From NCBI RefSeq assembly GCF_037414475.1, contig NZ_CP147913.1, forward strand, positions 4,216,001 through 4,280,000: DNA of 64,000 bases, given 5' to 3'. The notes under the pieces are model-generated. The model worked only from the letters and a program-made list of their open reading frames with translations, did no database searches and was not told the origin of the DNA. How positions within the stretch are numbered: position 1 is the first letter of the stretch; every line of letters begins with the position of its first letter. This DNA is from Myxococcus stipitatus. GTDB taxonomy: Bacteria; Myxococcota; Myxococcia; Myxococcales; Myxococcaceae. Shown here piece by piece: positions 35,442-53,725 of the stretch. A program made the translations under genes and the position numbers.

Positions 35442-35592
35442 ATCCACCTCGGCCCCGCGCGTGGGGCACTCCCGGCGCACCGGGTGTCGATGTCTTCCCT
35501 GTTGCGGCTCACGGCACGAGCGGCGGGCACCGCGTCCCGCGCGGGTGGCTCGTATCGCGGTGCTCCTTGGAACGGGCCCTGGGGCCCGCGCC

Positions 35593-35636
35593 GGACAGAC
35601 GTCTGGAGGGAAGGCGGGAGCACACCCTCCCTCCAG
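35593..35636. promoter_or_regulatory. third CCAGACGTYTGTCY motif plus hairpin upstream of the porin gene
   Basis: GGACAGACGTCTGG at 35593-35606 shares 13 of 14 positions with the site at 30103. Overlapping it, a perfect 9-bp inverted repeat CTGGAGGGA (35603-35611)/TCCCTCCAG (35628-35636) lies between the lipoprotein stop and the porin start, 167 bases upstream of the porin ATG. No T tract follows on either strand, so it is unlikely to be a classical terminator. Confidence 0.42.
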
Positions 35637-35654
35637 CGTGAAACACAGCCAGGA

Positions 35655-44249: not shown

Positions 44250-44611
44250 CAAATCCCTCGAGCCAGGTGATGCCTGCGCGGACGCCCGGGCATCCAGATG
44301 TTGGTGGGTTGCATTCGCCACCCTATGACGAAACATCGAGGCACGTAGGTGGAGGGCGCCATCCTCGAGGTCTCCCGGCGTGGCGGCTCACGAACGCTGG
44401 GGAATTTCCGCTCACGCACAGGGGGCCCTCTGACAGGGCTGCCGGAGCAGCGTTTCGGCCCCGGGAGCGACGGCGAGGGCAACCGTGGTGACATTCCGGC
44501 ATGATGGCCCACGTGCGCAGGGCCACGTCCGCTCTCGCACAGGGGGCCGCCCTGACAGATCCGCCGAAGCATCACCTCGGCGAAGGGCCGGGCTCGCCTC
44601 GCCCAAGGCAG
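44250..44611. repeat. non-coding stretch with a direct repeat, 44407-44436 and 44528-44558
   Basis: 362 bases between two minus-strand genes, with no credible gene. TCCGCTCACGCACAGGGGGCC at 44407 is repeated as TCCGCTCTCGCACAGGGGGCC at 44528, and each copy continues to a CTGACAG about 10 bases later; the copies are 121 bases apart. An adjoining CCGNNGNAGC segment is also partly shared. The repeats may be degenerate palindromic or regulatory units; no transposase gene is near. Confidence 0.5.
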
Positions 44612-51217: not shown

Positions 51218-52180
51218 TCACGCCGGCGGAGGAATCCGTACCCCCGCGAGCTTGCGCGTGGTGAGCACCGCGTGGATGTGCGCGATGCGTCCATCCGCTC
51301 CGAGCTCCACGCGGAACACGCCGCGGGTGGCGTGCATCGGGTCCTTGTCCGGTGCGAAGGTCATGGCCAGGGCGGGCAGGCCGTTGAGCCCCTGGAGTTC
51401 CACCGAGAGCGGCGGCCCTCGCAGCACCATCAGCCGGGTCAGGAACTGCATCACCTGGCGTGGGCCCACGAGCGGCACCTGGGCGGCGCGCACCTCGCCT
51501 CCACCGTCGGACAGGGCGCGCACGTCGTCGGCCAGCAGGGCCTCGGCCGCGGCCACGTCGCGAGTCACGAGCGCCCCCAGGAAGCTCTCCAGCGCGACAC
51601 GCGTGCGCTCCTGGAGTTCCTTCGTCGGCAGGCACCGCGCGCCGTTGTAGGCCGCCATGGCCGCGCGGGCGCGGTGGTGCACCACCTTCACGTGGACCTC
51701 GCTCATGTCCAGCGCGTCGGCGACCTCGCGCACGGTGGAGTCGAACACGTCGCGCAGGAGCAGCACCGCGCGCTGCTTGGGGGTCAGGGCCTCCAGCGCC
51801 AGCAGGAAGGCATAGGAGACACTCTCCAGGAGTTCGTAGCGCCCCTCCGTCGAGCCGCCTCCGGGCAGCCGCGCTTCCGCGGAGGGCGCCACCTCCTCCT
51901 CCTCGCCCGTCTCGAGTGGAGAGGGAAGCCACGGGCCCACGTAGGCCTCGCGCCTGCGCCGGCGCAGGGCGTCTCGGGACAGGTTCACCGCCACCCGCGT
52001 CAGCCAGGGGCGCAGGTCCTCCTGTCGCCGAGGAGGCGACGTCAGCGCGCGGGCGAAGGTCTCCTGCACCAGTTCGTCCGCGTCCGCCGCCACCCCCGTC
52101 ATGCGGTAGCACAGCCCCCAGAGGTAGCGCTCATGCTCCCGCGCCGCCTCCGCCCATACCCCGTGTGCCTGGTCTGTCAT
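51218..52180 (-). CDS. ECF41-type sigma factor with SnoaL-like C-terminal domain
   Basis: A 320-residue sigma factor. Region 2 (RYLWGLCYRMTGVAADADELVQETFARAL...DLRPWLTRVAVNLSRDALRRRRRE) and region 4 (LEALTPKQRAVLLLRDVFDSTVREVADALDMSEVHVKVVHHRARAAM) are followed by about 120 residues of an NTF2/SnoaL-like domain. The linker WLPSP and the DGGG motif (ALSDGGGEVRAAQVPLVG) are the marks of ECF41, where the C-terminal domain regulates the sigma without a separate anti-sigma. ECF41 genes usually neighbour an oxidoreductase, as here. Its start overlaps the last of two truncated copies of its own 5' end by ATGA. Confidence 0.9.
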   Translation of the reverse strand: MTDQAHGVWAEAAREHERYLWGLCYRMTGVAADADELVQETFARALTSPPRRQEDLRPWLTRVAVNLSRDALRRRRREAYVGPWLPSPLETGEEEEVAPSAEARLPGGGSTEGRYELLESVSYAFLLALEALTPKQRAVLLLRDVFDSTVREVADALDMSEVHVKVVHHRARAAMAAYNGARCLPTKELQERTRVALESFLGALVTRDVAAAEALLADDVRALSDGGGEVRAAQVPLVGPRQVMQFLTRLMVLRGPPLSVELQGLNGLPALAMTFAPDKDPMHATRGVFRVELGADGRIAHIHAVLTTRKLAGVRIPPPA

Positions 52181-52296
52181 GAGACGAAGCCCTCCCGCAC
52201 CCGCTCGTCCGTGTCCGCCACCACTCGTGTCATGCGCGCGATGAGGCCGCGCTCATCCGCCCGCGCGGCCTCCGCCCTGTGTGCCCGGTTCGTCAT
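52177..52296 (-). pseudogene. truncated sigma copy B, 39-residue open frame
   Basis: ATG 52296 to TGA at 52179, 39 residues: starts MTNRAHRAEAARADERGLIA and ends with an acidic helix. Compared with the sigma N-terminus it matches MTxxAHxxAEAAR, ER, RMT and VADxDExVxE. It keeps an open frame, an ATG and a stop that overlaps the sigma ATG as ATGA. Whether it is translated, acts as a leader peptide or is decaying cannot be told. Confidence 0.7.
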
Positions 52297-52412
52297 GAGG
52301 AGAAGGGCTCCCGCACCAGTTCGTCCGCCGCTACGCCCGTCCTGCGAGTTCCGAGGCAGCGCCCATCCTTCCGCGCCGCCCCCGCCCACACCCTGTGTGC
52401 CCGATTCACCAT
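52293..52412 (-). pseudogene. truncated sigma copy C, 39-residue open frame
   Basis: ATG 52412 to TGA at 52295, also 39 residues: starts MVNRAHRVWAGAARKDGRCLG and ends DELVREPFSS. It is closer to the sigma N-terminus at RVWAGAAR and TGVAADELVRE than copy B is. It begins five bases after the stop of the oxidoreductase gene and its own stop overlaps the ATG of copy B. The operon therefore runs oxidoreductase, copy C, copy B, sigma. Confidence 0.7.
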
Positions 52413-52417
52413 GAAGC

Positions 52418-53725
52418 TCAGGCCCCCATCGCCATCCGAACAGGCTCCGCATGTCGCTCGCCCCGCAGCAGCGCCTGCTCCACCACCTCCGCGCTGGCGA
52501 AGGACGCGTCCACCAACATGCCCTCCTCGCCCACCCAGTCACCCACTCGGTACAGCCCGCTGACATGGGGCACCTTGGCCGTGGGCCGGCCGGACAGGCC
52601 TCCCGCCTTCGCGGTGGGCAGCAGGTGCGTCACCACCAGCGAGGGCCGGAAGCGCCGGGCCACCAGGACCTCGCGCCACCCCGGTTGCAGCGTGTCCATC
52701 ACCACCTCCAGCTCCGCCTCGCTCGCCTCGGCGTCCGCCTCCGTCAGGTACTTCATGACGTGCACCATGGCGCCTCCCTCGGGCCCCAGCTTCGCGTAGG
52801 CCGAGTGCACCGACGCGTACCACGGCCCGTCGATGCCCAGCGCGAAGAGCGCCTGCGGCTTCGGCAGCCGCGACAGGCCCAGCTCCAGCGTCGCGGCCCT
52901 CACCGGAATCGCCGCGGCGGCCTCGCCCTCCAGCACCTCGTCACCCGGCATCAGCGAAGCCACATCCCCTGGCGCCCCCGCCACCACCACCGCGTCCGCC
53001 GCGAGCACCGTCCCATCCCCCATCCTCAGCCCCTCCACCCGGCCGTCCTTCACGACGACACGCTCCACCTTCGCGGAGACCTCCACCCTCGCCCCCGCGT
53101 CCCTCGCGACCGCCGCCACGCGCGTCACGAGCGAGCCCCAGCCCTCGTCCACGTACAGCACGTTCCCCTTGAGCCCCTGCTGGAGCTGCCGCACCGCCGC
53201 CTGGGCACTGAGCCCCTCCAGGTCCGCGCAGTAGCTGGCCACCCGCACCAACGCTCCCGCGACGTCGCGCACCTCCTCGCTCGCCACACGCGTCCGCAGC
53301 CACTCGCGCGCCGGCACGTTCTCCAACGCGTCCGCGTCGACTCGAGGCAGGGCCCCCAGGAACCGCGCCAGCTCCAGCTTGCCCGCCAGGCCCAACAGGT
53401 CCGTCGTCAAGAGCGACACTGGCCCCCGAGGCAGCGGGTGCAGCCGCCCCGCCCTCAGCGCATAGGTCCCACCCTTCTGCCCCGGGACGCTTCCCTGCGG
53501 CGTCACCCCCAACCGCCCGAGCACCCGCATCCCCGCCCCCGCCCTCGCGAGCGCTCGAGGTCCCAGGTTGAATCGGAACCCCTCGACCTCGGACGTCTGC
53601 CCCCGTCCACCCAGGTGCTTGGAGCGCTCGAACAACGTCACCGAGCACCCACCCCGCGCCAGCAACGCCGCCGCCGTGAGCCCACCCAAGCCCCCGCCCA
53701 CCACCACCACCTTCTTCGCCGTCAT
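52418..53725 (-). CDS. FAD-dependent amine oxidase / phytoene desaturase-like oxidoreductase
   Basis: A 435-residue flavoprotein. The dinucleotide-binding motif VVVVGGGLGGLTAAALLARGG opens the protein and the GG-doublet-type motif KHLGGRG follows about residue 42. The C-terminal FAD segment reads GLYRVGDWVGEEGMLVDASFASAEVVEQAL. It fits the phytoene desaturase/protoporphyrinogen oxidase group. It is the first gene of the ECF41 operon; ECF41 factors are usually linked to a carboxymuconolactone decarboxylase, oxidoreductase or epimerase, which supports the pairing. ATG 53725 has GGAGG eight bases upstream. Substrate unknown. Confidence 0.88.
   Translation of the reverse strand: MTAKKVVVVGGGLGGLTAAALLARGGCSVTLFERSKHLGGRGQTSEVEGFRFNLGPRALARAGAGMRVLGRLGVTPQGSVPGQKGGTYALRAGRLHPLPRGPVSLLTTDLLGLAGKLELARFLGALPRVDADALENVPAREWLRTRVASEEVRDVAGALVRVASYCADLEGLSAQAAVRQLQQGLKGNVLYVDEGWGSLVTRVAAVARDAGARVEVSAKVERVVVKDGRVEGLRMGDGTVLAADAVVVAGAPGDVASLMPGDEVLEGEAAAAIPVRAATLELGLSRLPKPQALFALGIDGPWYASVHSAYAKLGPEGGAMVHVMKYLTEADAEASEAELEVVMDTLQPGWREVLVARRFRPSLVVTHLLPTAKAGGLSGRPTAKVPHVSGLYRVGDWVGEEGMLVDASFASAEVVEQALLRGERHAEPVRMAMGA

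Follow-up and report, generated by a model that had tools for sequence, protein, structure and literature searches.

The closest described counterparts of the locus analyzed here are the MIRUs of mycobacteria, small repeats reported to insert at start codons with little disturbance of expression and to carry an ORF coupled at -4 nt (PMC12548453). In the senX3-regX3 interval, three MIRUs lie side by side as units of 77 and 53 bp and have been credited with promoter activity (PMC4213456). The stop-start geometry involved is that of translational coupling by termination-reinitiation, in which pairs overlapping as ATGA are described as strictly coupled in 13 of the 14 cases tested in H. volcanii and E. 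coli (PMC6728339). According to the studies reviewed in PMC12548453, coupling works best at a spacing of -4 to +3 nt and is 3- to 10-fold lower, or nearly lost, by 30-40 nt in most studies, whereas in one study it faded only between +50 and +350 nt.

The repeats at our locus resemble MIRUs as described in these reports: they are short units between operon genes, they bear a small ORF that meets the next gene at -4, and they occur in tandem. MIRU units (77 and 53 bp) and the units found here (116, 101, and 107 nt) all have lengths of 2 mod 3. The -4 overlap that characterizes a MIRU is seen here at 52296 and 52180, by geometry alone. MIRUs are, however, dispersed and apparently mobile, whereas our repeat unit occurs in a single place (as does a comparable unit in the relative G007) and was copied from the neighboring gene's own start. 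The stop-start geometry is identical to that of known ATGA termination-reinitiation coupling, which joins two real genes directly (PMC6728339), whereas in the present case an expanded gap is spanned by mini-ORF chains whose peptides are not conserved. Synthetic nonsense upstream ORFs likewise consist of a short ORF with an internal ribosome-binding site and a stop adjoining the target start (PMC13255528), but those are engineered and single, and the present ones are natural, tandem, and located inside an operon. At the level of titles and abstract openings in the open-access literature, no description of such self-derived relays was found.

Layout of the oxidoreductase-sigma locus

The window (the whole stretch of 64,000 nt analyzed, from the Myxococcus stipitatus genome labeled G000) contains the following features:

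52418..53725, minus strand: FAD-dependent oxidoreductase of the Amino_oxidase family (Pfam PF01593, E 4.6e-23), the upstream partner of sigma
52420-52418, minus strand: stop codon TGA of the oxidoreductase
52293..52412, minus strand: mini-ORF 1 (stub 1), 39 codons, a truncated copy of the sigma 5' end
52177..52296, minus strand: mini-ORF 2 (stub 2), 39 codons, a second truncated copy of the sigma 5' end
51218..52180, minus strand: ECF41-like sigma factor gene (Pfam and NCBIfam matches), the source of the duplicated units
52055..52180, minus strand: sigma codons 1-42, the parent segment of the duplication (alignment of the units)

An earlier sequence-only reading of this DNA had given the operon order as oxidoreductase, mini-ORF, mini-ORF, sigma, which is correct, and had placed the start codons at 52412, 52296, and 52180, whose spacing of exactly 116 nt is confirmed from the coordinates. 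Its claim that the mini-ORFs align with the sigma N terminus is borne out by the alignment of the units, in which they are truncated copies of the first 42 codons of sigma; it had the 39-residue size of the frames right but numbered them units 2 and 3, whereas they are units 1 and 2, unit 3 being sigma itself. The same reading took each stop to overlap the next start as ATGA. This is true of both stub stops, with overlaps at 52296 (stub 1 stop/stub 2 start) and 52180 (stub 2 stop/sigma start), but not of the first link, TGA-N5-ATG at 52420-52410, in which stub 1 starts 5 nt past the oxidoreductase stop. The oxidoreductase-sigma gap in G000 amounts to 237 nt. A longer sigma start within stub 2 was ruled out, as the sigma frame is devoid of ATG, GTG, and TTG from the upstream stop to 52180.

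Regions 2 and 4 of the ECF core are present in the sigma factor (Pfam Sigma70_r2, E 3.8e-15; Sigma70_r4_2, E 8.9e-12), its C terminus gives a weak SnoaL_2 match (E 1.5e-5; 25.9 bits versus a cut-off of 27), and the SigX4 and SigJ models match almost the full length with scores under their cut-offs. The linker reads WLPSP in the translation (by eye), the ECF41 motif being WLPEP (PMC3426412). A COE-type partner is adjacent, since the gene directly upstream of sigma encodes an Amino_oxidase-domain oxidoreductase and this domain is among those given for COE oxidoreductases (PMC3426412). The order COE-then-ECF is reported for 107 ECF41 loci (29%), with the promoter located 5' of the partner gene and not 5' of sigma (PMC3426412), so that sigma would depend on the upstream gene. 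As in those operons, the oxidoreductase lies 5' of sigma in the same direction; unlike them, our locus has stubs between both genes and shows no TGTCACA-CGTC promoter upstream. The sequence TGTCACA-N16-CGTC has no exact match in the window, and no TGTCACA-CGTC pair with at most 2 mismatches and a 15- to 17-nt spacer occurs within 455 nt 5' of the oxidoreductase. Because the consensus promoter was not found in these searches, the sigma factor is termed only ECF41-like.

Origin, age, and peptide conservation of the stubs

When the region was compared with its own genome by BLAST, the one secondary match fell within the locus (E 5.9e-15, 75%); the 116-nt repeat is therefore not a product of chance, and no dispersed element was found for this unit. 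In a local-repeat scan covering 2.42 Mb of the 10.3-Mb genome, the best-matching offset was divisible by 3 in all but 8 of 90 repeat groups, the stub locus being one of the 8.

Relative to an ancestor of the duplicated segment, inferred by hand from the alignment, units 1 and 2 have in common the loss of 9 nt and six derived bases (one of these bases lies at codons 21-22, where the alignment is poor); in addition, each stub carries a different private 6-nt deletion. All three deletions (9, 6, and 6 nt) are in frame. The common changes followed by separate losses show that a first copy diverged before it was itself duplicated. Of 111 sites, 20 or 21 differ between a stub and the ancestor, against 3 of 126 for sigma itself; as judged from this alignment, the copies are diverged rather than recent. 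The nearest species, G008, G017, and G019, show a mutual dS of 0.12-0.15 and a dS of 0.25-0.29 versus G000, in agreement with the sigma tree. Since these three are closer to one another than to G000, the duplication arose on, or survived only on, the G000 branch. By hand arithmetic from dS, this branch measures ~0.17 synonymous changes per site, and a comparison with stub divergence suggests that the stubs are of roughly the same age as the branch and have drifted near the neutral rate. A horizontal origin was rejected, because unit 1 has the sigma-lineage changes of unit 3 at codons 8, 9, and 36 that are absent from the three nearest species; the copies are therefore taken as made in place. 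In unit 2, codons 8-9 are missing and codon 36 shows the ancestral base, a state that requires a reversal or gene conversion if the copy was made in place. By this evidence, the stubs arose long ago and locally, by tandem duplication of the first ~40 codons of sigma.

The stubs show no purifying selection in dN/dS, a check that the sequence-only reading had proposed for a functional role: versus the hand-inferred ancestor, the ratio is 1.24 for stub 1 and 1.50 for stub 2, and between the stubs it is 0.77. Sigma over the same codons has a ratio of 0.14, from three changes only. Changes are spread evenly over codon positions 1/2/3 (8/7/5 and 8/8/5 in the two stubs). Of the residues that are conserved in the 26 congeners, the stubs keep 12 of 24 and 13 of 24, no higher a share than of the variable ones (11 of 17 and 10 of 17). 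The center of region 2.1 is deleted from both stubs, and stub 1 retains an ADELV tail. The stub peptides drift neutrally, with no visible selection on their sequence; a sigma-like function was rejected on dN/dS and residue conservation, and the neutral dN/dS makes decoys or working leader peptides unlikely.

Both stub frames are free of stops, and both ATGs are intact. In neutral simulations, both original frames were retained in 9-12% of runs when in-frame deletions were forced and in ~1% with random deletion lengths; some ATG relay was left in 24-26% and 14-17% of runs, respectively, and in 27-46% counting GTG. Frame retention at this locus alone is suggestive of selection on the relay and no more.

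Several other repeats were observed. Two similar small tandem ORFs at L119:16867-17167 are offset by 224 nt (2 mod 3) and overlap as ATGA (by eye), and a direct repeat at 44373-44551 of the window, outside the larger conserved genes, has an offset of 121 nt and is at best 76% alike. Elsewhere in the G000 genome, C1:5155039-5161416 is a long CRISPR-like array whose repeat ends GGGTTGAAAC (by eye), and C1:7007421-7007734 holds 98-nt repeats across the 3' end of a minus-strand ORF.

Expanded junctions in relatives and at a second operon

A search of 96 genomes of the family found sigma at E 1e-40 or better in 58. An upstream oxidoreductase match is present at 56 of the 58 loci, of which 43 are compact, 12 (G000 included) are expanded, and one (G077) is outside the measured set. 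All 26 other Myxococcus species, each represented by a single genome, carry the oxidoreductase-sigma pair, and G000-type stubs were found in none of these 26 congeners searched: sigma starts 3-6 nt after the oxidoreductase stop in 24, and the other two, G011 and G007, are expanded differently. The sequence-only reading had held that relatives without the mini-ORFs would speak against a function; with all 26 congeners lacking them, sigma function in general does not depend on these stubs. Beyond Myxococcus and genus g6, 14 of 15 loci were checked, and at 12 of the 14 the oxidoreductase has an in-frame ATGA overlap with sigma. In G087 the letters ATGA are present, but by frame the start is an ATG 4 nt past the stop, and G077 has no ATGA.

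Five expansions are free of palindrome arrays: G000 (237 nt), G011 (81 nt), G050 (95 nt), G043 (118 nt), and G007 (454 nt). In all five, ATG mini-ORFs follow one another without a break between the oxidoreductase stop and the start of sigma, the links measuring -7 to +6 nt; a chain of this kind arose in 1.9-4.8% of shuffled gaps at this junction. They occupy five separate places of the sigma tree (52 of the 58 loci, the six most distant being omitted), with G043 sister to the array clade. In the mini-ORF of G050 and G011, the sigma start runs in frame into a duplicate of the oxidoreductase tail (by eye), and the mini-ORFs of these two genomes have zero stops in any sense frame. Stop counts in the other sense frames were set aside as a test, because an ATGA start adds a TGA to the second frame, and the frame of a relay is necessarily open. 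The G007 expansion (L056:2464-2917, 454 nt) is built of 95-nt repeats with mini-ORFs joined by ATGGTGA overlaps; its unit has no further match in G007 and none in G014 or G000.

In genus g6, the oxidoreductase-sigma gap contains a 25-nt palindrome, AACCTGTCSGACAGTCGGACAGGTT (L057, L058, L060, L062, L065, L080, L082, and L084). Seven genomes of this genus, in which the oxidoreductase end is readable, have at least two copies in gaps of 245-1236 nt; an eighth array genome, G056, has no oxidoreductase match on its contig and was left unscored. One of the seven (G054) has an ATG chain, and G044 has one only if GTG starts count. Sigma is without an internal stop in all palindrome-bearing genomes. 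An intact sigma in g6 genomes that mostly lack a chain indicates that coupling can be lost and is not indispensable. With 2 mismatches or fewer, forward matches to the 23-nt core of the palindrome number 246 in G044, 54 in G043, and 5 in G050; G000 and G007 have none.

The local-repeat scan revealed a second stub array in the same genome at C1:4111418-4111851 (L101:11418-11850), in the order ECF sigma, a 298-aa protein, three 34-codon stubs, and a caspase-like gene (start L101 11780; Peptidase_C14 E 2e-4, 21.6 bits versus a cut-off of 21.4). The 298-aa protein has no family match in profile searches and is taken as a putative anti-sigma factor from its position and an N-terminal His/Cys motif. 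The stubs join the caspase-like gene's own start to the tail of the upstream gene; they are near-identical, with a period of 101 and ATGA at each link, and these copies in G000 are probably recent. All 27 genomes of the genus give some match to this junction, and the best 11 loci of these were examined. Six are expanded (G000, 299 nt; G008, 97; G005, 427; G012, 561; G003, 154; G009, 46), every one with an unbroken chain in which each link is ATGA; in G012, ATGA sites follow 107 nt apart three times running. The junction is compact in G017, G019, G006, and G026 (the last by eye), as GTGA in G017, G019, and G026, and G004 is the eleventh locus. The number of stubs thus varies by species from none to at least three. 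Shuffled gaps with fixed ends gave a chain in 7-88% of cases, so several of the second-junction cases are weak taken singly.

Random tandem duplications of 40-240 nt spanning a junction, when simulated, produced an ATG chain in 28-33% of cases for six ATG-start parents and in 1% for a GTG-start parent. The chance that eight of eight lineages have a chain is then ~1.5e-4 (hand arithmetic), the lineages being delimited by judgement as five at junction 1, G007 included irrespective of the origin of its expansion, and about three at junction 2 (G000 and G008; G003, G009, and G012; G005), for which there is no tree. Adding the array clade as a ninth, failing lineage changes this to ~1e-3 (hand arithmetic); the exclusion of palindrome arrays was decided after they were seen. 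The statistics support, but do not prove, selection for the chain. One gap of 213 nt in the window is uncoupled and yet holds a chain if GTG starts count beside ATG, though no ATG-only one. Of 12 syntenic junctions that are tight in some species, four were flagged as differing by at least 30 nt, the stub locus being one of them. The control junction at 61.5 kb aligns end to end without expansion, that at 11.6 kb differs by about 40 nt (against G008 alone), and that at 35.5 kb (35481-35653), a loosely spaced pair, has an insertion of ~120-130 nt versus G008, G017, and G019 without an ATG chain.

A proposed reinitiation relay and its alternatives

We consider it rather probable that duplications at such junctions persist when they leave a termination-reinitiation relay, which keeps translational coupling. 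Ribosomes leaving the oxidoreductase stop would reinitiate at stub 1, terminate at its ATGA to reinitiate at stub 2, and terminate at the next ATGA to reinitiate at sigma. Selection would keep this relay unbroken, so that sigma would remain translationally coupled to the upstream gene and the peptides would be by-products. One rule, that a duplication persists if its mini-ORF chain is unbroken, would cover the expansions in other species and the second junction as well. The stop-start geometry at each link fits reinitiation. Given the decay of coupling with distance, an expansion of at least 100 nt would in most systems sever sigma from the oxidoreductase ribosomes, and mini-ORFs linked at -4 would bridge it.

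Duplex energies with the anti-Shine-Dalgarno sequence were calculated for the links. In kcal/mol, they are -8.4 in front of stub 1, -6.6 in front of stub 2, and -10.8 in front of sigma, the last for a Shine-Dalgarno-like GGGAGGG within the stub 2 tail, and -9.3 to -10.2 at the second junction; the background has a mean of -5.1, an s.d. of 3.0, and a 5% quantile of -10.2. Since only the sigma site lies beyond this quantile and one other equals it, most links fall within the background and Shine-Dalgarno sites lend modest support. Against the relay being indispensable, most array-bearing relatives (6/7) are without an ATG chain. It also counts against the relay that any ATG relay survives 14-26% of neutral runs, that a fresh duplication of a coupled junction yields a chain about one third of the time unselected, and that short frames easily stay open in GC-rich DNA, as the stop-free mini-ORFs of G011 and G050 and the uncoupled 213-nt gap illustrate.

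An unlikely but credible reading takes the stubs as plain relics, that is, duplicates left by slippage or recombination whose frames are open by chance in GC-rich DNA and have no fitness effect. Neutral evolution of the peptides, congeners without stubs, and the chainless state of most palindrome-bearing relatives agree with it, and the suggestion of slippage relics in the sequence-only reading was right about the origin, a tandem duplication in this lineage only. It leaves the kept frames unexplained, however: unbroken ATG chains occur in 5/5 array-free expansions at junction 1 and 6/6 at junction 2, and both original frames survive in just 1-12% of neutral runs. Selection for the stubs could also act on their number, which would set the ratio of downstream to upstream product and let evolution tune it, links lowering, or stubs with Shine-Dalgarno sites raising, a costly product such as sigma or the caspase-like protease. 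The varying stub number at junction 2 (none to at least three), the nearly identical and probably recent copies there in G000, and the gain in translation of up to 20-fold that designed nonsense ORFs are reported to give in E. coli (PMC13255528) are in line with such tuning; we regard it as distinctly improbable, since neutral persistence with coupling intact accounts for the pattern equally well.

That the stubs yield working products, either leader peptides or decoy sigma fragments binding core polymerase, is very improbable. Their derivation from region 2 and the ADELV tail kept in stub 1 point that way, but dN/dS is about 1 or more, conserved residues are not preferentially kept, and the region-2.1 core is gone. 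The decoy fragments of the sequence-only reading fail on these counts; its leader peptides metering sigma translation come nearest of the three roles it named, in that the act of translation would matter, through the relay, and the peptide would not. Least probable of all is that the inserted units carry a promoter for sigma, which would have its sole precedent in the MIRUs between senX3 and regX3 (PMC4213456) and would leave the open chains unexplained.

As a tentative and rather unlikely extension of the relay, myxobacterial coupled junctions may in general give rise to self-derived, ATGA-linked chains under selection for their frame only, whose varying copy number could serve as an evolvable rheostat on sigma factors and caspase-like proteins. 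If the relay is true, the DNA of these junctions would be selected for its translation but not for the encoded peptide, and the junctions would constitute a natural experiment on the number of reinitiation steps that an operon tolerates. For annotators and small-protein surveys, the stubs are a caution that open mini-ORFs, even translated ones, may yield no functional peptide.
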